From NCBI GenBank assembly GCA_948470475.1, contig OX419338.1, positions 5,151,266-5,215,265 of the forward strand: DNA of 64,000 bases, in the 5' to 3' direction. Origin of the DNA: Galaxea fascicularis (taxonomy: Eukaryota; Cnidaria; Anthozoa; Scleractinia; Euphylliidae). How positions within the stretch are numbered: position 1 is the stretch's first letter; every line of letters starts with the position of its first letter. The translations under genes were made by a program, and so were the position numbers. Under the pieces are notes generated by a model. It saw only the letters and a program-made list of their open reading frames with translations. It did no database searches and was not told the DNA's origin. Positions 2,881-59,244 of the stretch are shown in pieces.

Positions 2881-5800
2881 AGATCCATTGTGGCATTGTT
2901 TGTACAAAATCTACCTTCTCACTTAAGTTCTTTTTACCCTTGCCAAAGCAAAATCACGAAACCAAGACGTCTTCGTCATCAGTCTCCTCTCTGGTTTGAT
3001 TCGAAGCCGGCTGTTGTTGGAAGCACAATTAACGGTAGTCGGAGTTAACTACCATGCCAACCTACAGGTTCTGAGTCAAAAGCAAAGAGCGCTAGTTATT
3101 CTTGCGACCATCGTTTAACCGTAAGATGCATGAGCAGACGTTTTTAGCTGCGTACACGTGGCGTTTATTTGAGAGAGCGTGAGGATTCTCTGGCAGCATT
3201 GAGCGCCAAGAGGTTTGGACGGTATTTGTTTTGTCTTCACCTCCCCCCCCCCGTCCCTTCCCCTCCCTCCTCCGGTTGATGGTTCCATTGCGTGGATGCA
3301 ACGATGTAGAACTGTTGTCAATCACAGGTAACCCAGGATTATTTCTAATCGGCCTGTGTACAATGCTAATTTTTGACGGAAAGTGAAGGTCACCTTTGTC
3401 AGAATATTACTGGCCGCGATTATACTCTACTTTTAAGTCTGCAGTTCAATGGAAAAATGAATTTTAATACATGAAAATTACGTTACAGAGCACTTAAATG
3501 TTCCTCATACGTTTTTATGACATCATTCAGTACTGATCGTTTCACAAGTTTATGAATGAAGTGCAGTCCTTTCCGATTGACGCCAGCCACTTTAGAATTA
3601 ATTGTCGGCCGTTGACCATCGTGGTGTCACTCCATAAGGTGGAACTTGTTGAGCGCCATTTAATCGAAGTGTTTGATGATTCAATGGAAATCTCCCTGCA
3701 AGAGGCCTGTGTTGGAATCCAGCTGGACCGCGAGGTCTGAAGCCTGGTGCTGGGCGTAGTCGCGATGGCCTATAAACAGGAGCCATTGCGGGCGCATCGT
3801 ATCGCTGGAGTGGACCTTTGCGCTGGTCGTCTGCCTTGCGGTGAAAATGGGAAGGAATAAATTCCTTGGCATATGCGTTTAACGAACGCTCGTGTTTATC
3901 GATCCCAGTGTCTGTTGCGGTGAAAACAGCCGCGGCTCTTTCTATAACTCCCCCAAAAGATGGAGTTTGTAATTGGTTATGAATAGATATTTGTGTGGAT
4001 GGGACAAATTCTTCAGCTTTTGCGTTTAATTTAACTGGATCTTTAACTTCTCTTTCAACCTCAGCGCTTTCTCTGTTTCTAACAGCCATTGTCCTACCAT
4101 CAGCTCCACCAAAGGTGAATTCTGAAAAACGAATTTGCCGAGGAACGAATTCCTCTTCTTCAGCGTTCATTCCCAGCGGATAACGTTTGGCGGGGCCTGC
4201 ATCAATCTGGGATCCAACTGCCTGCACTTGAGGTGTGATGGTTTCTGAACTTTCGTGTTTTTTTGGACAACAAAGGTTATTGACCGTCTTGTTGAGAGTT
4301 TCCACTTTTGCTTGGATGGGTTTAACTTCTGCAGAGCACTTTGGAGCAATTTCGCTAATCATGTCCCTTTCCACGGGAATCTCTTTAACAATTTCCTTGG
4401 TAGCTTCGCCCTCGATGGGGACCTCACGCCTAACAACGCTTTCAGTTTGTTGTTGTGAAGAGAACTCGTGAGCAATCGCGTGGGGGACCCCCTCTTCGAG
4501 GACAATTTCATTGAGAACACTGACATTTTCGACTTGGAAAGCAGGCACACTGATCTCGCTGACAGTTTGTACTTCCAAAGACAACTCGTGAGCAACGCTG
4601 TTGACTGTTTGCTCTTTCAAAGGGATCTCCTTGATTTCTCTGACACTTTCCATCTCGAAAGGAAAGTGAGGGACAAAATCACTGACAGTTTGTTCTTTCA
4701 AAGATAATTCATGAGGAACACCGTAGGCCTTCTCCTCTTCGAGCTGAATCTTCTTGACTTTGTTGACGCTCTTCTCAGTTATCGCAAACTTGGCCAAAGC
4801 TTCACTGACACTTGGAATTTCTACAGACATTTCGTGAGCAATGCCGCTGACTTTCACTTCGTCGAGGGGATTCTCTTTGACATCACCGACAGTTTGTTGT
4901 TCCAAAGACAACTCATGAGCGATGCTGCAGACTTTCTCTTTTTCAATCTCTAAAGCAAACTGAGGCACAAACTCACTGACAGTTTGTTTTTCTAATGACA
5001 ACTCATGAGCTATGCTGCAGACTTTCTCTTCTTCAAATGAGATCTCTTTGATTTCGCTGACGCCTTCAATCTGGAAAGCAAACTCAGGGGTAAACGCGTA
5101 AACGATTTCCATATGAACAGGAATTTCTTGAATAATCGCGGCTAGCTGCCACTCCACAGGGTTGCAATCATCATTACTTGTGAATATTGTGATGTAATTA
5201 CATTCCGTTTTTTCTGTTTTCACGTATTCTCTGACACCGTTGTTCTTCAAGCTGAAAATTAAATAGATGACGAAACCTTAGAAAATAAATAAAAGATTCC
5301 CTGCTCGCTTGACTTTGTGTTGGAGGCGCGTTTTCGTTTTGATGTCCTTTTCTCCCGGGGTTTCTTTTACGCTTTTTCCATTTTATAATCTAGTCTTGGT
5401 CAAAGCTACTTGGAATATTTCGTCAGTGACAAGTCTTCGAAAAACTTGCAACCTTGTCAAAGTTGGTTGAAACTGTTTTTGACGAAAGTACTGCTCGCGG
5501 ATTCGCCGCTAGTATATCGCATTCGTTCCACAGATTTTAGAGCAAAAGAGAGACTGCACACAGTCTAGTTTTATTTCTGTGACTCCATGTAGTTATAAAG
5601 GTGTGAAAACTAGAAAAGGTCTTCGTGATATAAATCTAACGATGCTTGTTACGATTTTCACTGAAGTTCGCAAGGACGGATTTTCGCCGAGGATATGAAT
5701 AAAGATAGCTAAGGATGTCATAAATTACCTTTGCTGAAGTATCATATTCGCCAATTTAGCTGAATCTTTTCCGTAAAAGTACCTCCACAGCTTGTATGCC

Positions 5801-31146: not shown

Positions 31147-31382
31147 TCACACCATTTGTGGCGTGATTCCATTTTCATCCTGCTCAATAGCGCGCACCCT
31201 TTGTAACCAGGCATCGTAAAACTCTTCATATTCCTGGATGAGTTTCTTGATTTTTACCGATTTGCATTTGATACTCTGGATTGTTTGATGACTCAATAGC
31301 ATTTCGTGGCAGTCGCAGCTGTTTTGTGCTGAGGTCAGTGCGATATGCGCACTGTCGCTTTCTGTTTCCTTCTTGCTGTGAC
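31147..31382 (-). CDS. K+-filter GluR-like channel, exon 7 (cytoplasmic tail, stop)
   Basis: 236 bp from acceptor TTTCCCAG to TGA. A charged tail with a CDC motif and a helix-prone segment IKKLIQEYEEFYDAWLQRV that could form a coiled coil. Confidence 0.88.
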
Positions 31383-34300
31383 CTGGGAAAGAAACAAATC
31401 AACCTAATATATGGTTTTTAAACTCAGAAGACGTTATTAGGACCCGTTCATTGTTACATTCGTGGAACCAGTTTGGCAAATATTTCTTTTCTGTCGCTGT
31501 ACAGGACTCTCGGACTTCTTCAATGAACCCCCAATTAATCCTAATCCATATTCCAATCCGCATTCTTAGCTTACCCTGAAGCATGCATTCAACAACAACT
31601 TATGGTTTGAACTATTCGTGTCTGTATTTAGCTGTATGGCCACAGCCTTCTGGTACTCCTTAACTAACAACCTCTAGAGCTGCCTCTTCCCTTTATAACT
31701 TAATTAGAGCAACCTGACGACGTAATTTTACTGGCACACAATAGGCCCTTTGCAGTTTACGATAACATGGTAACACCTTGGTTGAGAGCAAATTGCTTTT
31801 TGGGACATCCAAAGCAAAGAACATTAAGTTGCTTTGATTTGGATGTCCCAGTCAGCAATATGCTCTCCAGCAAAGTCAGGTTTTTTGTACCATGTGATCA
31901 TAAACTGCAAAAGGCCTATTAGGGTAATTAGAACACTTGTTAAATTTAGTATTTTAAGATTTACGACGTTTAAGGGTTTCATTCTTAGTATTAAGATTTT
32001 TAAAGACCTTGTTTCAAATTTTTCCTCTAACAGACACTAGCTGGTCTCACCTACTCACAAATTTGAGACTGAATTGAGCTCAGTTGAAACACTTACGTCG
32101 CCTTGGTCGATTGATGAGAAATTCCCAGCCCACCCCCACTAACACAAGAAATCCTAGCATGCCCAACAGGATGAAAAGAACTTGTTTGAACGCGCCCTCT
32201 TGGTAAAAGAACAGTCCCTCTGAAGCTTTGACCTCCTGGCTCACTTCATCCGTAGGATTCTGAAAAAAGGAATTGAAAAAAAAAACCTTCTAGAACTTTG
32301 CTAAAGTAAAGTACCAATAACATGGATGTCCCATTATTTTACACCCCAGAAAAATCTTACAGAGCCCGAGGAGCAGTTTCTAAAGTACGGGGACCACTCC
32401 CGCCTCTTCTTTTGAGAGACCATTTTAACTCAGTTTAATTCGTTAGACTTATTCCGCCAGACGAAATTTGGATGTTTTCCCGTTAGGTCCGCCAACTGTG
32501 GCCGACCACAATAATCCCGTGAAAGTACTTTTCAGTTTTTGAGATATATTTTATTACTTTTATTATTTTTTTGCACAAAAAATTGGGGGAAGGGGTCGGT
32601 CGGTCGGTGGGACTTCAACTAAAGATCAAGGATAGAGTTTCAATGATAACCAATGGCGGATTGTAGGAACGCTACTAAACGCCAATGACGAGTTAAAACA
32701 GGTTAATTTGTGTCACTATGGCAAGCCAAATGTTTTACCTCTGAATCCTCTGATTCCGCCATATTTGTTTATAGAGTAATGTCCAGTACCCCGCGAATTT
32801 CATGTCTCGTCCCAGTCCCCAAAATTAAATAAAAAAGTGCGGACATTGAATGAATTGCACGATTGAATTGAATGAATATGAACCAAATGAATTGAAAGAA
32901 TTTTGGTCAATTAATTAACTAAATAGGGACGAACAAAATTGAATTGAATTAATGCTTTGGTAAATTGAATTGAATGAACGTTGGAGAATTGAATTGAATG
33001 GATATGAAAGTTTTAAATTAATATAAGGATTAAATTAAATGAATACGGTCATATTGAATTTTGCTACATTTGGCTTGCCATATGCCACACAGCAAAAATC
33101 ATGTGTGTCAGTTGGAAACGGAAAATTTCACGTCACTTCTTACCTTGAGTGGCTCAAGATTTTTTGCAATGATTTCAAACACCTCCTGAGGATGATTACG
33201 CACATAACGTCTGAAGCAATTCAACATGTCTGATGACTCGTTGGCACGAACAGAAAGACCATAGGTGATTGCGTGCTCAAACGTGGTTTCTATACGGACG
33301 TCATTATCCTTTACGAAGTCACTGTAGTATGTCAGGACGTAGTTGTCGATCAGAGAACCTTTCAACTTCTGGCTCATTAGATCTTTGTTCATTTTTGGTA
33401 TTGAATGATAGGCTAAAAGCAAGATTTATGACTTGGTTATTTATATTTAAATCACTGACTTGTTAAATATACAGGATGCTTGGAAGAAATCATGTCGGGT
33501 ACCATACCGCCTACAAGTCCTGGGACTTAAGTAGTTTACACTCTAAAGTTTTATTATGAAGTGACCGGAGGCAATTTAACTTTTTCAAAATGAGCACCTT
33601 TGCGTTACCGTTGCTATGGCAACAGCTGTTGCTTGGAAGCAATGAGAAAAAAAAAACTGAAGTCATACGTTGAAAAGATGTTGTAGTGTCAATGAAGGAA
33701 ATCGAACCTTGTCTTCTATAGGAAATTTTTATTTCAACACTCCAGAGCAAAAAAAAAACAAAAAAACAAAAAAAAAAAAAACTGGTGCGAGCGTCCCTAA
33801 AGCGTGAATTGTAACAATTCATTCATCCTGCAATTGTTTTATCGCAGTCATAACTGCAAATTAAAAACCTTGAATCACTGAAAGGATGTATTAAAGTTAA
33901 CAAAGAGTGTTAACTTTTATTCGCTCGATGCGATTGGCCATCCTCAGGGAGTTTCTCTAGCACTATTTTCGCCAAAAACTCTAAAGTACTTTGAAGTATG
34001 CCTCGGAAATTTTCAACTTACCTTTCAATTCAGCGTTCAAACTAACTCCAAGTCGCAACTCCTCACTGCCATTGACAGCTCCAATCTGAGAAGTAAAATG
34101 AATGTATATCAAATTAGACGTACCGGTTACATGTTTATTTGAAGCTCTTGTAAGCTTTGATTAAATATTTTTTGCGTGATCAGGGCCGTAGCTACGTTTT
34201 GTAATATAAAGGCGGGGGTGGGGATTGTCGGGAGTGCTAAAGGCACGAGCTTTGCAGGTGAACAAGGATAATAAGGCATGTGCTTTCAGTGGTTACAACA

Positions 34301-37300
34301 CTGTTTCCGACCTTATGTCCTCTTATTTCACTGCGTCAATGGTCAAGCAAGTTCCAGACACTCTCTGTAAATTAGAGTGAATAGGGTGTTTTGCTTCGTT
34401 TTGTATTTCAGTTGCACGCACCTTGGACGCACTCTAAGTCTCCACAATCAAACTGACCGGGTCCAAAGTAAACAAATCCTTCTCCCCTGCCTCCCGCTCC
34501 CGCGTTTTTCCCAGTGCATGTGTACTCTGGCATCAGGGGCATCATTAATGACTGGTTTTCTTCAGACCTTTTAGGCCGTTCACAAATAACAGAAGTCGAC
34601 TCTTATTTATCTTCAAAAAGTCTGATCTCGTGTGGCGTTCCCCAAGGCTCTGTGTCAGGCCATTGTTATTCTTGATCTACATCAATGATATTCATAACTC
34701 TTCCGATAAATTGTCATTCTATCTCTTTGCTGATGACACTAACTTGCTGTATGCTGACAAAAATCTGAAATCTCTTGAGGAAACTGTCAATAACGAACTG
34801 CTTAAAGTCTCTGAATGGCTTAATGCAAACTAGAGGCCGTAATGGCCTTCACTCGGGCTTTTCGAGTGGCAAATGGATGTTGTGGATGATTTCCGCACAG
34901 CCTAATATATAAAATTATACATGTGTTTTGTGACTCAACTCGATTCGTTAAAGCATTGGGCGGCCTGTGTGAGTGTGCGTGCTAGCGGAAATAAACACGA
35001 CAGGACCGTGGGAACACAAACAAGCTTAGTTTTCTGCTTTTCTGTGACAGACGTTTTAGCTTTTTCACTGGTATCCTACGTCTTGATGGCACATGGCATT
35101 CACGGTTGTCGTTAAAATACACAAACTTAGCATAACGAGATCTGAATTCCTTTCTATATTTTATTTTCACTAAGGCATCACGTTGAGCATGTACAGATAA
35201 CTGCGTTGCCTTCTCAAATACCTCGCATTTTTCAAGTACATCCGACAGTTGTGTTGATAAAACTGATAAACTTACACATTCATGTAGAACACGCGAAGGT
35301 ACAAGATTACACATAAAACTAACACACCACACAGACTTGATACAGCTGATAATCCACAATCTAAAGTATACAAAAGAAATGAAATACTGGTGACAATAGC
35401 CATAAAAGTAAAAACGTTACTTGCATCTTCGCTATGCCTGCCCATATGTAGCAATATTTAATCCTTGTTGATTTATATTTGATTTGATCTTATTTTCTTT
35501 TAAATTTAAACTTCATGTCCAAAATGTATTTAAATTTAAACTGAAATTCAATTTAAATTAAAACAAATTCAAATTTAAATTTAAACAATTTTTTTTTATT
35601 TTATCTTGTTTTCCATTTAAATTTAAACATTTAAAATTATTTTAAACCTTACTGCAATATTTTTTAAAATTGCTTAAGTTTGATTTAATCCTTTTTATTC
35701 ATTTAAATTTAAACTTTCCAAATTTTATTTAAACTTACGAATTTATATTTGATTTAAACTTCGAAATTCTATTTAATCTTCCTGGGACGAGCTCGGCCAG
35801 GGTCACGCGTGTAGCCATTAGTTTTTCGATGTCTCGTCAGTAAATATAGACGACGAAGGCACCGGTAGAGTGTCCAAATTACTAAGCGAAGCATCCAGGC
35901 TTTTCCCTTCGTCCTACAGCCCTGCTGTGAATGCCAGTCGTTCAGCAGCGACGATCAATGAAACTCTCGGGTTCGCTTAGAGACTGCTTCGGGAAAGTAC
36001 ATGCACCGGCCTCCGTGGGCGACTGAACTGACAATAACATTTGCGACTGAGAGCGACATGTAAAAAGTGTTAACAGGCCTCCTAAATAGTATTGTGCGTG
36101 ACGCGAAAGAAAACTGCAATAAAAAAGTTTTCTTTCGCGTCACGCACGTCGGACTATAAAGCGAAGTAGGGACTACTCGTAGTCTACTATTTAGGAGCCC
36201 CCATTATCTCATATCGCAAGGGAAAATCCCAAAAAGGCATCCTACTTAAAGCGAACCGGTGCATCTGCAAACTGCAGATGTTTTGAGCAGGCCTGTTAAC
36301 CCTTTTTACATGTCGCTCTCAGTCGCAAATGTTATTGTCAGTTCAGTCGCCCAAGGAGGCCGGTGCATGTACTTTCCCGAAGCAGTCTCTAAGCGAACCC
36401 GAGAGTTTCATTGATCGTCGCTGCTGAACGACTGGCATTCACAGCAGGGCTGTAGGACGAAGGGAAAAGCCTGGATGCTTCGCTTAGTAATTTGGACACT
36501 CTACCGGTGCCTTCGTCGTCTATATTTACTGACGAGACATCGAAAAACTAATGGCCGCCGATGATGAACTTGTGACCCTGCTATACGCGTGACCCTGGCC
36601 GAGCTCGTCCCAGGAAGATTAAATAGAATTTCGAAGTTTAAATCAAGTACAAATTCGTAAATGTTTAAACTTAAATGAAAAACAAGATAAAATGAAAAAA
36701 ATTGTTTAAATTTAAATTTGAATTTGTTTAAATTTAAATTGAATTTCATTTTAAATTTAAATACATTTTGGACATGAAGTTTAAATTTAAAAGAAAATAA
36801 GTTTAAATCAAATATAAATCAACAAGGATTAAATATTGCTACATATGGGCAGGCATACTTCGCTTCGATGCGTGGGTTCTTCATCACCCAACATGAACGC
36901 TTTCCTGTTGCTGTTGTTACTACTGCTGTTCGTCTTTGTACCTCTAATCTCATCATCAACGGGTATCTTGTATTCGCCAGCACCTAAACTGTTCGTGTCA
37001 AAGTTTCCACTCAACTTCTTCAAGGAACATTTCTCATCGGTAGTCAAAGCCTTTGTACACTTTTTGTACTCATTGATGGCTCATTCAGCTCATTTGATCT
37101 CATAATATTTTTCACGTTTGCTTCGAGTTCGCGGAGCGATCCGTTTCGAAATGTACGCTCACCATCATCCGATTTAAGTGGGTCTACCGCGAATGGCGTG
37201 TGCGTTTGTAAGTGGTTTGAGCGTATTGGATACGACACCATTTGCCATAGCTGTAGACAGGTCAACTTTTTCCTTTGAAAATCCGTCGAGGGATCCACAG

Positions 37301-38288
37301 TTGCTTTGTGCCTTGCTTTTCAACACACAAGACAAGCGTAAACTAAACATAAACAGGTTTTTACCGGGTTTTACCGGTTCATCGTTAGCGCCTGCGCAAA
37401 TACGCCGGAAATGAGGTTTGTAGAGAACAACGAAAAAAAAAAAGAAAAACGGACGACAGATTTAGACTCGGGCCTTCCACAGGAAGCCCGAGTAATAAAC
37501 TATCGCTCAATGATGAAATTCAAAATTATGTCATCCTCCATCCTTATCAGCGGAAGCTGGGTTATTCGGTTAATAATAATAATAACTTTATTTAAGTCTC
37601 AAATCGTTCTAGCTGACCACGAATGTTCTATTCATTGCTCGCCTTAGGCACTTCGTTCCCCTCTGTACTCTTTTAAATACCTATCGTTCCTTGATATTTC
37701 CTTACATGTCATATGGTTTAGCTGCTTGGGGTCAAGCTGCTAAAACCCATCTACAAAAACTCCTTGTACTGCAAAAACGTGTTCTCTGTTTAATTTATTT
37801 TTCTAAGCCCAGAGCACACGCCGTGTCTCCGTTTATCTCCTCAAATATTCTCCCCCTAAACATGCTCTATGTTGAAACTGTTTCTTCTTTAATGTACGAC
37901 GTCTCACGTTTGTCTGTTCCGTCTAATATCAGTGATCTCTTTACTTAGTTAATGAAATACATGATCACAAGACCAGGAGCTCCTCTTAGGGCAACATTTA
38001 TTCTAAATCTTCGAGTCTGAGCCTAAATCAAAGGTCCTTTGGAGCTGAACTCTGGAATTTCTGCCGGGACAAATTTCAACAACTCCTCAAAAGTGCCTCT
38101 AAAAAGCATGTACCCGGTTTGTTACTCCCAATTATGAAGGTTAAGGATGATTATGTTGAAACTCCTATTCTTCTGCATGAAACTGCCAATTTTACATAAT
38201 TCATGTATACGAATCATATTTTTGTTAGACTCTCTTAAACTTCTTATCCTCCCGTATTCGTTTCCATATAATAATAACTAATAATAAC

Positions 38289-38365
<77 letters not shown>

Positions 38366-41300
38366 ATAATAATAACTTTATTTAAGTCTCAGATCTTTCT
38401 AGCTGAACACAAGTGCTCTACTAATTGGGAGACTGTAAATCAAATAAACTCTAAATTAAATCAAATGTTGGGTTTTGAGGAGAGGGGAAATCCGGAGTAC
38501 CCGGGGAAAAACCTCTTTTCATTCCTTTAATCTAATATTGTTGTAGCTTGTGTTGTGACTGTACTGATAATTACTGGTAATTCTTAATGGATTTAAGTTG
38601 TTGTAATTTATTCCTTAATTTAATCATGATCGTGATTAGTTGATCGTTAAACCATGGACTGCCGTATTATTTTTAGCTCCGCCCACCGCGATTAGCCTTT
38701 GCTGTTTGTGGGCGGAGATGGACCATAACATTTTGTATCTGTCTGATTGTCTGTTCTGATTTATTATGATTATGATTTTATCAAACTTAACTTAATTAAA
38801 CTGAACTTAACGTCTGAACGTCTGAACGTGGGAAGAACGAAAAAGGACGCTATCTTCTGAAGTTCTTTGTGCGTTGTCAGAGTACAAATGAACTGGCAAA
38901 TGGAACCTGTATGCTTTATACGTTGTTTATTGCCTTTCATCGGTTCATGACACCATTCGCAATAATCACAAACTCCTCTATAGAAGCCAATAAAAACGCA
39001 AGGTTTTCACCGTCCATTAAATAAAATTTAATAGTGGAGTTTGGGTATTTGTACTACGAAACTCCCAAGACGGCTTAAGAGTTTAAGCCGACTGATCGCC
39101 GGGTAGGTAGAAGATATTTAGTCTAGCTCCCGTGGGAACTCTTTTCATACAGTGATTTACTCAGGACTTACTACAGAGCCATGCACAGTGAAATGGTGCT
39201 GGATGCTGGCTGATAACGAAGCTGTAACGATAGCAGTGAATATAGCAATGATGATTATTCCAACCAGAATCCACACGATGCAAAATATTCGCGCCAAAAA
39301 TGACTTGGGTGCGCGGTCACCATACCTAACAAGGAGAAGAATAACGGATCTGAATCATCATGGCTTAAAAATCATGAACTATCCAGTTTGACTCAATGCC
39401 TAGGCAACTGCAGTTATTACTTAAGTTCTATCACATTACCCTCCCTGAGTGAAAGAGGTATGTTTTGTAGCCGGGGTACATGAGAAAGAAAAGTGCTTGC
39501 AGTTGGTTTTCTTTCACTAATTCTGCTTTGAATACACTGTAAATTTTACTCTTTATATGCAAATTAACTTTGTTATAGCTCAATTCTCTGACCAGACTGT
39601 CATGGTAAATAAGTTTTTTCTGGGTGTTGAACGCGCATCTCAAGTAAACACCTTTTTATTCATTTTCTATGCGAAGATTTTTTTAAAACAATTTTTAAAA
39701 AACTAAACCAGTGGCTAGCTCTCTTGTTTTAAAAAACTAACACGGTGAGTAGCACTCTGCTAACTGTGAGTTGTAAAACGTTTTTATTCTTCTACAAGTT
39801 TCGTCTAACTATCGTATACTTCTTCAGGGAGTTTGCGCATACAACATACTGAATCTTTCAGAAGGCAATTGAAGCAAACACATTGATGTATCCGGCTCCA
39901 AGCCCGCGAAAATGCGTAGGAAAAGGTTTTGGAATTGCTTCTCATTAGTTGAGAAAATTAGGAGTTTTGCTAACCAATCACAAAGCGGTGCCAATCACAA
40001 AACTCAGAGTTAGATGAATTGTTTTCGACAATCAACTGTAGAATACTCTAGACCATTTATGATAGTACGCGTGGGACTGTTTAGCGTTACGTACTCACCC
40101 AACCGTTGTCATAGTAACAAAAGCCCACCAGAAGCCTTCCCAGGTGCCATTGATAAACGATCGCGGGAACTCGTCCGGGTTCTTCAGACGGTCCTATAAA
40201 GGAACATAACTTTTTGAATAAAATGATATTTCCAACCATTTCTCGTTGAACTGGCAAGCAAATGTCATGGGTAACCACAAGATGTTGAAAATCCTTTGTG
40301 GCTACGTCACGGAAATGGAACAAGAAAGGAGCAACATGTTGGAGAAATTCACTGCTTCAACAGCCTTATGACCACACAATCCTTATAGGGCGTTTTTACA
40401 TGACGTCAGGGCGGCCATATTGGTGTAGCAAAACAAAGGAACGGCGGCCATATTGGTGTACCAGGCTAACCCTCTGGGAATCGAACTCTATTTTGTTACA
40501 TCTAACTGATATGGCCACTGGTCTCGTGAGTGAAAACGCTCTATAGCGTCTATCTGGCTTATCTTTGGAAGGGGCTTGGTTAATACCATTCCTTCAGGTA
40601 TTCAGATTTTGATCCAAATTTTATACTGAAAACGAATCTGAAAATTATCACAATAATTTGCGTACGACAAGAAGTATTTGTATCTTTTGTCTTTCTTCAA
40701 TGATATGAGCTTGCATTTCAATTTTTGTTAATTTGTAATCACTTGATCTTCAGTAAAATAAACATGCAGATTTAATACTTATTGTCTTCAATTACAATTC
40801 TAATCGCTATTTTTCTCTGCTGATTTCCTGTCCAATGGTCGTTTTTTTCCATAAAACAAAGGCGAGTTTCGATTAAAACGGAACCGCTTCAGCTGGAATC
40901 CAATAATTTGAATTTTAAACTGATTCTTGGTACCAAAAGCAAACATTACGGGTTGAATAAACACAAGATCGGCGACTTTTAAGATTGCGATGTTTATAAC
41001 TGAGGAGATTTTGAAATGTTTACCCAAAGTTGTTAGAGAACTTGATTGGCCGCTTAATATGCAAATCACATATTGGTGGGTGCTATGCTCTGTCGTCAGG
41101 TTAACCCAATTTACATACCTGTTATATTGCTTCGGCTGTTTTGTTTTATTTTTTTTTCCGAAAGCGAAAGAGATCAGTAGAAACACCCCAGTGGGCTTCA
41201 GAAATTAAGACAACTAACTGTAAATTTGCCGAAACCATCAAAGAAGACCGAGATTTACATTAAACATTAATGATTGGTAAATTTTAATCACGCAGAAACG

Positions 41301-42794
41301 ATATCTTTGATGTCAAATTGTGATAAGTTTCTTATTGACAGCTTACAATACGAACGCATTTCAATTAGTGAAAGCAACGAAAAATTGGGTAGAATTAAAA
41401 ACCAAAGAAAGCAGAGACAAAGCTTCACCAGCATTAGAAAGAATAAGTTTACAAGATAACAACAGTCTGTTAAAACGACTTAAAAAACTTGGTGAATGAG
41501 AGAGAAAACCAGAACCGGTTTGTCCACCTAATATCCTTTTCTTTGCAATAACTGAAACATCAATCAATAAAATGGAGTACTCCCAAAAAACCGGCTTTAC
41601 AAGGTGTAGTCGGGGTAGGAACGGCATCTAGATAGCAGAAACGGAGCCTAAGGCAGTGCGAGAACAGTCGACTGAAAGAACGACTTGAATTATTCCTGTA
41701 AAGATAAGGAGATTTACGCGGTATACCTTCCTTTTCTTGTCATTTTCAGTTCCAAATGTTTCCTTCAAGATGACTTTATTGCCGGCGATAATTATACTTA
41801 ATTAATTTGAATTTCCTCGTTATACCTCTTAGCAATATTATATACGGAAACTTAAGGGATATTTCTAATTTCACGCACAGAATGATCGCTGAAGTTTTTA
41901 TAATTCGATCTCAACGCTTTTATTTTCAAGCACGATGTTTTGCAACTCTAGTGGAGGACGGTTATGTGGTTATGATGTACATGAGGCAGTGCGTTCTGTC
42001 GTTTGAATGAACTCAGGAAATAGTACTGGAAACTTTAATCAGTAACATGGTCGATGTTGGTTGAGTTCTCACATACGTGAAGCTTTTTGGTTTACATTAA
42101 CAAAAAAACTTACCAGCAGCCAGATGATAATACCAGATAGAGTTGCTGCTACAAGTATAAATATAAGAATGGGCCATGCTTTGAACACTGTGTTCAACAG
42201 CTGTGAGGTCTTGCTGTCTTCCGTCTTGTCACGAACAAGTAGAGCCACTCGTGGAGCCTGGACAAACGGCACATAAGGTATATCTTTGAATGATTCATCT
42301 CCCAGGCTTCTTCCAGTGACAGGAAAGGTAAAATCATAAATCATTTTAGGCTGGTCGAGCTGCCTTTCCAACGCCTGGATAGCGCCAAGAATCTTTCCAT
42401 ATTTTACCGTAGTCGCCCTGTTGCAGCAGACATGAAGCATTTTGTTTATGAGATGAGGAAAAATACCCTCAACGCCAATTTTTCCTTTAACAACTTTTGG
42501 CTTTGCATATGGGCCATAATATTGCCACGCGGCAGACAATGGAACACCTCGAGAACACTTCTCGTCAACCGTAAATCGAGATATTTCATCTTCAGTCAGT
42601 ATTTTCCCGGTAAAACTAACGTTTGCCATTTTGAAATAGGTGCTGTTTTTGGCGTAGACGTCGGTTGTAGCAAAATAAAAACCCTCGGGAGTTTTTCCAG
42701 AGGTGTTCAGTGACTTGGTAGGTACGCTTTCACTTCCACAGGCCACTCCGGCCATCAGAAGCAGTAATGCCATACGAACCCCAGCTGCATCCAT
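31147..42794 (-). CDS. Glutamate-receptor-like channel with potassium-channel selectivity filter (553 aa)
   Basis: Seven coding exons (42794-42114, 40193-40099, 39325-39172, 34085-34022, 33412-33144, 32259-32097, 31382-31147) join in phase into 553 residues. Order: signal peptide (1-20), S1-like extracellular lobe (about 21-205), M1 (207-228), re-entrant pore with MTTVGYGD (255-262), inner helix (271-297), S2-like lobe (311-446), third membrane helix (448-470), cytoplasmic tail. This is ionotropic glutamate receptor topology without the large amino-terminal domain. TVGYG is the K+ filter of K+ channels, of bacterial GluR0 and of rotifer AvGluR1. The prediction is a ligand-gated, K+-selective, possibly inhibitory channel at the plasma membrane. 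In S1, R162 (PVTGR) could be the ligand-binding Arg; in S2, the acidic residue in SLIDNYVLTYY could be the amino-group contact. Ligand identity is unknown. Other Ion_trans_2 proteins are less likely because of the S1/S2 lobes. Confidence 0.88.
31784..31868. repeat. Inverted repeat in channel intron 6
   Basis: GAGAGCAAATTGCT..GGGACATCC mirrored by GGATGTCCC..AGCAATATGCTCTC; a hairpin of about 30-bp arms. Confidence 0.75.
32097..32259 (-). CDS. K+-filter GluR-like channel, exon 6 (third membrane helix)
   Basis: 54 codons plus one base between TTTTTTCAG and GTAAGT. It carries the end of S2 (EGLFFYQEGAFKQ) and helix VLFILLGMLGFLVLVGVGW, which returns the chain to the cytoplasm. Bacterial GluR0 lacks this helix. 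Confidence 0.9.
32845..33060. repeat. Degenerate GAATT-rich minisatellite in channel intron 5
   Basis: Irregular repetition of ATTGAATTGAATGAA over about 215 bp. Confidence 0.8.
33144..33412 (-). CDS. K+-filter GluR-like channel, exon 5 (S2 lobe)
   Basis: 269 bp, phase 1 in and phase 0 out (donor GTAAGA). It carries KLKGSLIDNYVLTYYSDF and FEHAITYGLSVRANESSD, an S2-like arrangement with a candidate ligand-contacting aspartate. Confidence 0.92.
34022..34085 (-). CDS. K+-filter GluR-like channel, exon 4 (start of S2)
   Basis: 64 bp between acceptor CTTCTCAG and donor GTAAGT: IGAVNGSEELRLGVSLNAEL. An NGSEE element at the start of S2 is common in receptors of this superfamily. Confidence 0.88.
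34480..34834 (+). pseudogene. Non-LTR retrotransposon reverse transcriptase fragment (CR1/L2-like)
   Basis: Carries ISCGVPQGSV, then after a frameshift near 34650 LLFLIYINDIHNSS and the catalytic FADDTNLLYADKN, ending KVSEWLNAN before a stop. The two acidic residues of the YADD-type motif remain. It sits in channel intron 3 on the opposite strand. Confidence 0.88.
35433..36857. mobile_element. 1.4-kb foldback element (long near-palindrome)
   Basis: Left arm 35433-36080 and right arm 36289-36857 are reverse complements with indels. The outer ends are TATGCCTGCCCATATGTAGC and its complement. The outer third of each arm is an array of TTTAAATTTAAAC units. The inner part is unique GC-richer sequence. 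A second inverted repeat sits in the centre. No transposase seen. Confidence 0.9.
36079..36197. mobile_element. Nested inverted repeat in the centre of the palindrome
   Basis: CTCCTAAATAGTA and TACTATTTAGGAG bound the segment. Inside, GTGCGTGACGCGAAAGAAAA and its complement form a hairpin (36095-36148). Possibly a small MITE whose insertion separated the large arms. Confidence 0.7.
36846..37300 (-). pseudogene. Possible decayed coding fragment, unknown protein
   Basis: On the - strand, open stretches in two frames overlap near 37090: one ends KNIMRSNELNEPS, the next continues INEYKKCTKALTTDEKC and GAGEYKIPVDDEIRG. A single shift would join them. No family recognised; it stops where the palindrome begins. 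Confidence 0.3.
37574..37635 (-). mobile_element. Retroelement 3' tail, TTA-repeat type, copy 1
   Basis: On the - strand ends GAGACTTAAATAAAGTTATT(ATT)n. The same segment recurs at 38361. It appears inserted in the LINE remnant. Confidence 0.65.
37636..38265 (+). pseudogene. Non-LTR retrotransposon RT C-terminal fragment (CR1/L2-like)
   Basis: Peptide IFPYMSYGLAAWGQAAKTHL, LLVLQKRVLCLIYFSKPRAH and later SFGAELWNFC, with stops between. These are thumb and C-terminal hallmarks of CR1/L2-type reverse transcriptases. Same strand as the fragment at 34480. Confidence 0.85.
38269..38375. repeat. Compound microsatellite (AAT)n(ACT)n(AAT)n
   Basis: About 100 bp of AAT and ACT triplets between two retroelement ends. 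Confidence 0.95.
38361..38530 (-). mobile_element. Retroelement 3' tail, TTA-repeat type, copy 2
   Basis: Repeats the GAGACTTAAATAAAGTTATT segment of 37574-37635 and extends further, including ATTAGTAGAGCACTTGTG on the - strand. Confidence 0.6.
38531..39171 (-). other. Channel intron 3, distal part
   Basis: No feature I can support in this 640-bp stretch. Confidence 0.5.
39172..39325 (-). CDS. K+-filter GluR-like channel, exon 3 (YGD and inner helix)
   Basis: Completes Gly259, then YGDRAPKSFLARIFCIVW and inner helix ILVGIIIIAIFTAIVTASL. The first helix glycine could be a gating hinge. The iGluR SYTANLAAF motif is replaced by FTAIVTASL. Donor GTAAGT, phase 0. Confidence 0.92.
40099..40193 (-). 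CDS. K+-filter GluR-like channel, exon 2 (pore helix and first half of filter)
   Basis: 31 codons plus two bases between ATTTTATAG (acceptor side) and GTGAGT. The peptide ends GFWWAFVTMTTV. The aromatic FWWAFVT pore helix is as in K+ channels. The intron splits the first filter glycine codon. Confidence 0.92.
40385..40545. mobile_element. Small MITE-like inverted repeat
   Basis: ATAGGGCGTTTTTACATGACG at the left resembles CGTGAGTGAAAACGCTCTAT at the right. Inside, GGCGGCCATATTGGTGTA is repeated in tandem. Confidence 0.6.
42114..42794 (-). CDS. K+-filter GluR-like channel, coding exon 1 (signal peptide, S1, M1)
   Basis: 227 codons from ATG to donor GTAAGT (phase 0). Signal peptide MALLLLMAGVACG, several N-x-S/T sites (NTS, NST, NVS), cysteines 80, 123 and 124, the S1 core YDFTFPVTGRSLGDESF and the membrane helix WPILIFILVAATLSGIII. 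An acceptor CTTGCAG 39 bp upstream of the ATG marks a 5' UTR exon boundary. Confidence 0.9.
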
Positions 42795-56020: not shown

Positions 56021-57334
56021 TGCATAGCGGAGCCTGGAGCCCTAGATTAATTTCTCGGCTTAAGCATATCTCCGTCTGCCGGAAGACTGTCGTGGTTATT
56101 AGCAACTTGTTCTTCACAAGGTGGTGGTGTTTTGTCTACAGGTTTCAGCTGTACTCTGTTGCCCCTCAACTCAGACCCATCAGGTGTCTTGAGTATGTAG
56201 GACCTCGGCTCGCCTGTCTCTTCTTTTACCTCTACTAGGGTCCAGGTCTTTGTTCGAGGCTGGAACATGGTTACTTGCTCGCCTTGGTTCAATTTTCTAA
56301 GTCTGCGTGTCGATTTGCTATCATACTGTTTTCTTTGCATGTCCTGCCGATTCTGTAGCTGCTCTCTGTGGCGTATCAAAGGCTTGTGCACGTTGCAGCC
56401 ATCCACTGCATGGCAATTGTGTGCGGTAATCTCTGTGGTTTAGCAGCTGGGAAGGTGACGGTAAGTTGCTGTCTACAGGTGTGGTGCGGTATGTCAGCAG
56501 TGCCAGATATGGATCCTGCCCTGAGGCTTCCGCTTTTCGTAGCAGGTTCTTGACTGTCTGAACTGACCGTTCCATAAACCCATTGCTTTGTGGATACAAT
56601 GGTGAGCTTGTCACGTGGTCAATGCCCCACTGCTTGCAAAAGGCTGCGAATTATTGACTACTGTATTGGGGGCCGTTGTCTGACACTAAGGTTTCTGGTA
56701 TTCCGTGCACTGCAAATACCGACTTGAGGTGGTTTATCACTGCGGCAGACGTGGTTGAGTTTAGCTTTCTTACGATGGGGTACTTGCTGTAGTAGTCTGT
56801 TACCAACAGGTACTGGGCTCCTTGGTAATCGAACAGATCGGTGCCAAGTTTTTGCCAAGGAAAGCTTGGCACATCGTGAGTGTGCAGTGGTTCCTTTGGC
56901 TGGCGTTTGGAGAACTGCGTACACGTGGGACAGTTGGCGGTCATTTCGTTAATGTCTTTTGTAATACCCGGCCAAAAGACGCAGTCTCTAGCTTTCAGGT
57001 TACACTTCTCAGCACCCAAGTGGCCTTGGTGGATAATTTGTAGAATCTGAGGACGCAGGTTGCTCGGAACCAGAAGACGATGCCCCTTTAGGATAAGGCA
57101 ATTTTCAACACTCAAGTCCTCTCTGAAATTCCAGAATTCTTTAAGGTCTGGAGGACACTCGTTCGGATACTCAAGCCACCCTTGATGAATGACATCCTTC
57201 AAGTGGTTAAATACAATATCCTGGCTTGTGTGCTCTCGTATTTCATCTAGTTTGGCGGGGCTAGCAGGCAAGGTGCTGGTAATTGCATCAACTTCGACTA
57301 GTGGTACACCTTGGTATTTGTCAGAGGTTTCCAT
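56021..57334 (-). pseudogene. pol remnant: integrase
   Basis: HHCC zinc-binding region (HQGHLGAEKC, CPTCTQF) and core with all three acidic residues: LGTDLFDYQG, VSDNGPQYSS and QSNGFMERS. A TAA sits between the second and third. The C-terminal part is frameshifted near 56400. Confidence 0.91.
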
Positions 57335-57337
57335 CCA

Positions 57338-58110
57338 TCAGACTCTGGAAAGGGCATCAGCAATAACATTTGTCTTGCCTTGGATGTATTTCATTTCCAC
57401 GTTGTATTTGGCCATTTTCAGGAGGAGCCGTTGTAGAAGTGGCGATGTACTAGGGATGTTTTTCTTCCATATGCTTTCCAGTGATTTGTGGTCTGTTTCA
57501 ATGAGTACTTGTTTGCCAAAGACGTAGTGGTTGAACCTCTCTAGAGACCAGCAGGCGGCGAGAAGCTCTCTCTCAATGTTGCTGTATCGGGATTCTGTAT
57601 CACTGAGTGATCGGCTTGCGTAGCACACTGGCTTGCCGTCCTGCATTAGTACACAACCAATCCCCTTTTGGCTTGCGTCTGACTGGATCACATTGTCCTT
57701 TTCTGGGTCATAATAGGCCAGGACGGGTGCTTCAGTGATTATTTGTTTGAGACTCTGAACCGCTTTGGTATGTTCTGGTTGCCATACAAAGGGTGTGTCT
57801 TTCTTCATCGTAGGGGCTCTGAGGTCTGGGCTATGACGGGGGAGAATCTGTTCAGGTAGTTGACCATTCCCATGAAGGTCTGCAACTCGGCTAGACTCTG
57901 TGGGATAGCTTTGATTTTAAGATCATCGGGTCTTAATCCGCCCGGGGTCCACGTAAACCCGAAAAATGATGTTTGGTCCACTTTAAACTGGAACTTGTCT
58001 GGGTTGAAGCGTATGTTGTTATCCCGTGCTGTGTCAAGGACGTTGAGTATATGCTGATCATGCTCAACTTCACTCTTGCCATAGACAAAAGTATCGTTAG
58101 CAATTCCACT
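57338..58110 (-). pseudogene. pol remnant: RT palm/thumb and RNase H
   Basis: Just after the frameshift the catalytic pair reads SGIANDTFVYGK, with Asn where the family has Asp. RNase H follows: VIQSDASQKGIGCVLMQDG, ERELLAACWSLERF and IETDHKSLE. It ends at an in-frame TGA. Confidence 0.9.
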
Positions 58111-59225
58111 CAGGCATCAAGTTTTCCGAATACAGTGTCCATTTTCTCTTGGAACACATTTCCACTGCAGGTAAGTCCGAATGGCAACCTTTTCCATCTG
58201 TATTTGCCCCATGGGGTACTGAAGGTGCACAGTTTGCTGCTTTCGTCATCTAGTTCTAATTGCCAGAATCCACTGCGGGCGTCTAGGATACTAAAGTGGG
58301 AGGCTCCACTGACTTCGGGTATCACATCATCTATGGTTCTCACATAGTATGGGGTGCGCTGGATGGCTTTATTGAGATCACGGAGGTCCAGGCACAGGCG
58401 AATTGTTCGATTAGGCTTTCTTGTAACAACAGTGCAGTTGACCCATGGCGTGTATTCATCGTGTATTGGCAATAGGATGCCTGCTTGTATTAGTCGTTCC
58501 AGTTCTTCTTGGTAGGCACCTTGTAGCTGGATTGGGACTTGCCTTGGAGGGTGTTGTACTGGGGGCACGTCCTGGTTGGTGTCTATATGGTATGGGGGCC
58601 CTGGGAAACAGCCAATGCCAGTAAAGACATCTTCATATTCTTTCAGGAGATATTCTTTTGTCAGTGGGAAAGGGTGTGGCTTACCCCGTACATCAAATAG
58701 CTTGGAGGGCTGAGCAGTGGGTTTGCTGTTGCTCTCAATGGTGACCGCCCAATTGAGCTTTTGTAGAAGGTTTAAACTTTGCGCTGACATGTTGCCTATT
58801 ATGGCTGGGCAATCAACATCAACTACTTCTGCTTGGATTGCTTTGGGGTTTGGGTTGTTGGGGCCCTGAATGTAAACTTGGCAAGATCCCAGGTTTGGGA
58901 TTTCAGACCCACCATATGCTTTCAACTTCATAGTAGGTTTGCGTAGATTCATAATTCTAGGACGAAGCTGATTGTACAGGGACTTAGGTATGATGTTTGT
59001 TTCAGCACCAGAGTCTATCTTACACAGGGCACGTGTTTGTTTCTCGTCTGGGCTCAGTGCACAGCAAACCTCTAAAAGGGCTTTTTCTTTACAGGCGATG
59101 GCATGGACGTCGCTTGTCAACGGTGTTGCACTAATTGGGCCCAGAAACATGTGGTCACTGGGTATCTGACTTGGGTCTCGCACCGACTCACTTGCACCAT
59201 CACTGGTAGCTTTAATGTCATGCAC
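58110..59225 (-). pseudogene. pol remnant: aspartic protease and reverse transcriptase fingers/palm
   Basis: Protease active site KIDSGAETNII, then RT blocks CTVVTRKPNRTIRLCLDLRD, FSILDARSGFWQLELDD and LPFGLTCSGNVFQEK. The open frame runs 371 codons before a frameshift. Confidence 0.93.
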
Positions 59226-59244
59226 ATCTTTCTTTTTAAACTTT

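Follow-up and report, generated by a model that had tools for sequence, protein, structure and literature searches.

A coral gene from an animal protein family that pairs a GluR0-type pore with a predicted glutamate-receptor fold: putative ligand-gated potassium channels

We analyzed a gene on the minus strand (31147..42794) of a 64,000-nucleotide stretch of the Galaxea fascicularis genome (the window, meaning that whole stretch) that encodes a receptor-like protein with a potassium-channel-type selectivity filter. The gene product belongs to a real, expressed, and widely conserved animal family, whose members join a pore of GluR0 type to a fold predicted to be that of a glutamate receptor. 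Its sequences strongly suggest a function, and with a probability of about 0.68 we read its members as, most likely, tetrameric ligand-gated K+ channels in which a predicted glutamate-receptor clamshell is built around a K+ filter. The clamshell, closing on a small ligand outside the cell, would pull the pore open, and K+ would leave through it and hyperpolarise (i.e., quieten) the cell, the hyperpolarisation following if the channel is K+ selective. We infer K+ selectivity by analogy with bacterial GluR0 and the Adineta vaga receptor AvGluR1, and tetramer formation and ligand gating by analogy with the glutamate receptor superfamily.

Gene structure and expression

The gene has seven exons and six introns (GT...AG at 6/6), and its frame stays open throughout the joined open reading frame of 553 residues plus stop; re-joining returned the same coordinates and length as the seven in-phase exons of the first-pass annotation. 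Exon 1 (42114..42794, minus strand, as are all that follow) holds the start codon, a likely signal peptide (recognised by eye), the S1 lobe, and most of M1 (residues 1-227), and ends at the donor GTAAGT, while exon 2 (40099..40193) supplies the end of M1, the pore helix, and the beginning of the filter, ...MTTVG (residues 228-259). Exon 3 (39172..39325) carries the filter remainder (YGD) and M3 with its FTA...TASL stretch (residues 259-310), and exon 4 (34022..34085) begins the S2 lobe with a Ser/Thr residue, S317, near the GST position of ionotropic glutamate receptors (iGluRs). The main part of S2 lies in exon 5 (33144..33412), the linker and M4 in exon 6 (32097..32259), and the tail, with a predicted long helix (504-543) and the stop codon, in exon 7 (31147..31382). 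The filter itself is interrupted by an intron: the 5' part of TVGYGD (40099..40106) ends where the codon of the first filter glycine is split after its second base (phase 2), and the 3' part (39316..39325) resumes at the exon join.

Expression is indicated by P0001, a 553-residue protein from a transcript-like contig of 1975 bases (source "lgn", 4 member sequences) that differs from the gene product at 6 positions. Because 1975 bases cannot hold an 11.6 kb gene with its introns, this contig reflects a spliced message, and it spans all exons, including the pore exons, whose skipping in transcripts had been raised as a concern in the first-pass annotation. The joined protein is confirmed as real, and chance is not in play.

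Filter and predicted fold

The joined protein reads MTTVGYGD in its pore loop, bearing out the K+-channel-type filter (TTVGYGD) first noticed there. In a ligand-free monomer model, the lobes flanking the pore build one clamshell across it, with M1 at 207-228, the pore helix at 240-255, M3 at 268-299, M4 within a helix at 443-490, and a C-terminal helix at 504-543; the glutamate-receptor-like architecture proposed from the letters alone (two lobes folding as an S1/S2 clamshell, three membrane helices, and a pore loop) is thus what the model predicts. A two-lobed binding domain split by a pore module was found in both the predicted structure and the profile comparison. Foldseek matched the ligand-binding and transmembrane domains (LBD-TMD) to animal iGluRs, and AvGluR1 was matched over the LBD fold only; that VIA-align did not list a fold (e.g., epsilon-type LBDs) does not speak against it.

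At the level of domain profiles, Lig_chan (PF00060) matched the gene product at 39.5 bits (cut-off 30.8) and passed in three of five relatives scanned (P0046, 31.6; P0129, 38.3; P0115, 37.1), falling below the cut-off in the other two (P0083, 30.0; P0102, 22.6). The amino-terminal domain PF01094, as well as PF10613, was not detected in the gene product or the scanned members, and a control (P0191) has both; the absence of an amino-terminal domain had been anticipated. Neither a second pore domain nor a voltage sensor was found in the gene product, which has a single filter and clamshell flanks in the model.

The third membrane helix was compared separately. By hhalign, M4 matched iGluR M4 with a probability of 42-51% over 22-26 columns, and four other helix pairs gave 1-19%; when the columns of the family M4 were shuffled 30 times, the score rose no higher than 14.5 vs 23.6 unshuffled, a weak control because shuffling destroys the hydrophobic run. 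Homology to iGluR M4 by profile comparison is only suggestive.

The first lobe is predicted to be extracellular, because relatives place CUB, Ig, or FN3 domains, which are normally extracellular, before S1. CUB plus Ig domains precede S1 in P0046, P0053, P0079, P0085, and others, and FN3 domains occur in P0102 and P0117.

A multi-copy family in at least three animal phyla

Searches that scored the ~8000 candidates sharing most words listed 120 of 200 and 120 of 171 passing matches (190 proteins in all), from which the phylum range is a lower bound. Named relatives among the matches listed were anthozoans, one scyphozoan, and hydrozoans, together with the hemichordates Saccoglossus, Glandiceps, and Ptychodera and the annelids Dimorphilus and Owenia; no named rotifer was among them. 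The nearest named relative listed is from the coral Porites harrisoni (77%), and a Nematostella relative (P0012) is 64% identical to the gene product. Record names are mostly uncharacterised, predicted, unnamed, or hypothetical protein, with some "potassium channel" and one Cubilin. Across the three phyla, TTVGYGD is present in 184/190 listed relatives, the remainder being P0026 (TTMGYGD), three fragments without a Pfam pore (P0073, P0080, and P0092), P0142, and P0143.

The host genome contains 76 exon matches to P0001 passing 1e-5, some of which lie in long open frames and probably belong to ordinary K+ channels. Sixteen are separate exons running from ~217-230 to 259-278 that resemble exon 2, and therefore suggest at least 16 copies or remnants. 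Several matches sit within ~180 kb of the gene, including two paralogues (L101 and L102) on contig C4 at ~5.25-5.27 Mb, ~35-55 kb beyond the window end, and further matches at 5.30-5.37 Mb of that contig. The exon borders of both paralogues are identical to those of the gene from M1 onward, including the filter-glycine intron at the same phase; upstream of M1, S1 of L101 is apparently split over two exons, and matches to L102 begin at residue 144. The earlier claim of a K+-filter receptor in an anthozoan is to be widened on this point, from one anthozoan gene to a multi-copy animal family seen in three phyla.

A pore closer to bacterial GluR0 than to animal iGluRs

To place the family, prokaryotic genomes were scanned with its alignment and the best 80 of 509 related stretches were kept. 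The scan patterns were the family's own pore, hence biased toward K+-filter relatives, and a K+-filter frame was present in 80/80. These GluR0-type frames end 160-180 residues past the filter in 78/80 loci (L066 and L074 are short), and PF00497 lay around the pore in 3/3 sequences scanned. The gene product shares the GluR0-type M1-P-M3 with a TVGYG filter but not the ending after S2 with only two membrane helices, its model having M4 and a tail. Profiles were then built from 82/99 family, 76/80 GluR0-type, and 74/120 iGluR sequences that remained after length/motif and redundancy filters; the 99 family sequences are those aligned from the first 120 listed (21 fragments, near-duplicates, and some long forms were omitted), and the iGluR set came from one search whose named members are mostly AMPA-type, kainate, or delta.

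The family pore scored 107 bits to GluR0 vs 19 to animal iGluRs, and, in medians, the GluR0 pore profile gave 107 bits on the family and 26 on iGluRs. Over full length, the family scored a median of 143 bits with the GluR0 profile and 17 with the iGluR profile, while profile-profile comparison with GluR0 aligned 294 columns (E 8.7e-49) for the whole and 186 columns (E 7.9e-12) for the lobes alone (one comparison each). Since the pore lies closer to that of bacterial GluR0 than to animal iGluR pores, the gene is no standard animal iGluR whose filter has changed, and the first-pass annotation is revised to that extent.

Phylogenetic trees were built from hand-picked or sampled rows comprising 33 family, 32 GluR0, and 17 iGluR sequences (the last all of AMPA/kainate/delta type, with no epsilon, NMDA, plant, or protist receptors), and branches are long on both sides. 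The family and the iGluRs are each set off by a branch with support 100/100. In the quick tree the two groups branched separately from the GluR0 set, yet the constrained joint tree was better (p-AU 0.951, approximately unbiased test); the careful tree again held them apart, with weak inner support (48/25, 87/83, and 78/69), and the joint topology was slightly better under constraint, by 4.4 log units (p-AU 0.664). The family may have a separate bacterial origin or may share one with the iGluRs. In the quick tree, though not in the careful one, a GluR0-like protein from an Olavius algarvensis symbiont (L063) grouped with the animal iGluRs.

A putative binding pocket with an acidic anchor

Outside the pore region, a single column is invariant among the 99 aligned relatives, D354 (codon 33345..33347), which in the profile alignment with GluR0 falls on the S2 acidic residue that serves GluR0 and iGluRs as the amino-group anchor. 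Other positions are nearly as constant, including Y96 (in a PY pair; 92/95 rows with letters), P158 (97/98), and S/T317 (97/99), and Y382-G383 is strongly conserved; Y96, S/T317, Y382-G383, and D354 sit where iGluR ligand contacts lie. The arginine-anchor motif (R..(V)DFS-type) was found in 1/82 family members compared with 65/76 GluR0 and 73/74 iGluR sequences, and in the lone positive member (P0096) it lies outside the aligned stretch 150-188. Columns 158-177 have at most 22 arginines of 99 each, and 44/99 rows have an arginine somewhere in 158-176; with so short and divergent an S1, the alignment here is uncertain, in keeping with the very divergent S1 lobe noted at the outset.

The suspicion that the ligand may be something other than glutamate was strengthened by these counts, which make a non-glutamate ligand likely. 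Because the acidic anchor is kept and the carboxylate arginine is not, we propose that the ligand carries an amino group or another cationic one and makes no conserved carboxylate contact, and an amine or other cationic compound would be our first guess. The many genomic copies together with the divergent S1 lobes suggest chemoreception, i.e., a role comparable to that of insect ionotropic receptors with an inhibitory output.

Weighing the ligand-gated K+ channel against alternatives

Several observations weigh against a ligand-gated K+ channel. First, lobe similarity in plain sequence is weak: the GluR0 lobe profile reached a median of only 9.8 bits on the family (range -2.6 to 32.6), compared with 82 bits on iGluRs, the iGluR lobe profile gave a median of -0.9 bits on the family by hmmsearch (78/82 reported), and PF00497 and PF10613 were unmatched in 6/6 members scanned. 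The family appears to have retained a GluR0 pore while its lobes drifted, and iGluRs show the opposite pattern. Second, with the carboxylate-holding arginine lost, the clamshell may bind no small molecule at all. Third, a TVGYG filter alone is no proof of selectivity, and we found no current, binding, or localisation data for any member.

The first two points feed an alternative that we consider unlikely, though to be taken seriously, in which the family's K+ channel is not opened by a ligand, the lobes are structural or protein-binding (delta receptors being the comparison case), and the pore is leaky or gated by a partner. The near-absence of the arginine motif, the extent of S1/S2 divergence, and the adhesion-type CUB, Ig, or FN3 domains of several relatives would all fit such a channel, but a dead pocket would not need the strong conservation of Y96, S/T317, Y382-G383, and, in 99/99, D354.

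Less probable still is a receptor channel in which the filter in practice fails to select for K+ and the ligand would therefore depolarise. Six residues alone do not reveal selectivity, and the predicted pore loop is inverted relative to K+ channels, but no result of the analysis argues directly for this reading; set against it are the retention of the filter in nearly all listed relatives and, as far as excerpts of the papers state, the selectivity of AvGluR1 for K+ over Na+ (PMC12226733) and the K+ selectivity of GluR0 (PMC12332018; PMC13099474).

An ordinary animal Kv/K2P-type K+ channel with pore exons beside unrelated extracellular exons is very improbable, since one transcript-like contig spans all exons, the flanks make one clamshell over the pore in the model and are unlike those of two-helix K+ channels (the outcome the first-pass annotation had warned of), and the pore scores a median of 107 bits to GluR0 vs 63.5 for the Kv1.3 pore, even though a PDB sequence search returned only K+ channels in the 60 listed of 369 rows (one titled Lmo2059 protein), "potassium channel" stands in some relatives' record names, and the K2P genes of this genome, too, seem to have an intron within the codon of the first filter glycine. 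That K2P intron, in the 4 loci readable of 8, is in phase 1, a base away from the phase 2 position here, and borrowing of the pore from a K2P gene is accordingly unsupported. A stricter filter-intron pattern matched only the paralogues L101 and L102. The phase 1 intron in the K2P genes (L107, L121, L125, and L128) may be a parallel insertion or a shift.

Other features of the window

Intron 3 contains LINE-type (long interspersed nuclear element) reverse transcriptase-like pieces at 34552-34833 (+) and 37613-37948 (+), recognised by eye from an FADDTNLL region and a C-terminal region. It also holds a large inverted repeat (~35780-36620) that is probably a non-autonomous mobile element; its peptides at 35822-35980 recur on the other strand at 36389-36547. 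Elsewhere, integrase, RNase H, and reverse transcriptase frames like those of a long terminal repeat retroelement were seen by eye at 56651-59243 (-), and a 559-residue open reading frame at 3598-5277 (-) contains imperfect repeats of type SIAHELSLEQQTVS.

Why the family may have been overlooked, and what it would mean

The M3 motif SYTANLAAF has 0-3 matches in 99/99 family rows and 6-9 in 120/120 listed iGluRs, with the same range when these were preselected by a similar motif (110/120); fewer than 4 residues also match in 47/76 GluR0-type sequences. Excerpts of two surveys indicate that a 2018 study of glutamate receptors in animals discarded any sequence in which less than 4 SYTANLAAF residues were conserved (PMC6307864), and that a 2025 eukaryote study kept only sequences linked to a tight iGluR similarity cluster (PMC12226733). 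The family may have been missed because such criteria excluded sequences with fewer than 4 of these residues or lying outside the cluster. We found no description of it in a search of the open-access literature, beyond which lie subscription papers, preprints, and supplementary files. In excerpts of PMC12226733, PMC6307864, and PMC12332018, the K+-filter receptors named are GluR0 or AvGluR1 and the family is unmentioned; the only animal receptor credited there with a K+ signature is AvGluR1, called highly atypical (PMC12226733) or, in a 2025 review, an evolutionary intermediate (PMC12332018).

If a many-copy family occurs in at least three phyla, K+-filter glutamate-type receptors would be a standing part of animal receptor repertoires. 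Were the proposed function true, cnidarians would gain a direct ligand-to-K+ inhibitory route, the family would provide ionotropic inhibition through a K+ conductance of its own, independent of GABA/glycine-type Cl- channels and of G proteins, and the proteins could serve as ready-made ligand-gated silencers. The family would also offer natural, expressible GluR0 relatives with which to study the relationship between K+ channels and glutamate receptors, a question of long standing. We modestly favor a fuller picture in which it would represent a second, so far overlooked animal lineage of glutamate-receptor type, of K+-selective inhibitory chemoreceptors with a GluR0 pore, no carboxylate anchor, M4 plus a coiled tail, and CUB-Ig/FN3 heads, diversified in cnidarians and with hemichordate and annelid relatives.

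Comparison with known systems

Bacterial GluR0 (Synechocystis, Nostoc), a K+-selective glutamate receptor, shares the TVGYG filter and M1-P-M3 with the family but lacks M4 and the tail, has the arginine motif in most sequences (65/76), and matches PF00497 wherever scanned (3/3). AvGluR1, opened by glutamate and hydrophobic amino acids according to excerpts of PMC12226733, is likened to the family by published description plus the LBD fold match. Animal iGluRs, as represented by the AMPA/kainate/delta types tested, resemble the family in the S1/S2 clamshell predicted around the pore, the predicted place of M4, and the LBD-TMD Foldseek match, whereas the family differs in its K+ filter and in lacking an amino-terminal domain, the arginine motif, and all but fewer than 4 of the 9 SYTANLAAF residues. 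Insect ionotropic receptors are excitatory cation channels with many copies and divergent lobes, often without the glutamate-binding arginine. The family is similar in copy number, lobe divergence, and arginine loss, but its filter would make it inhibitory.
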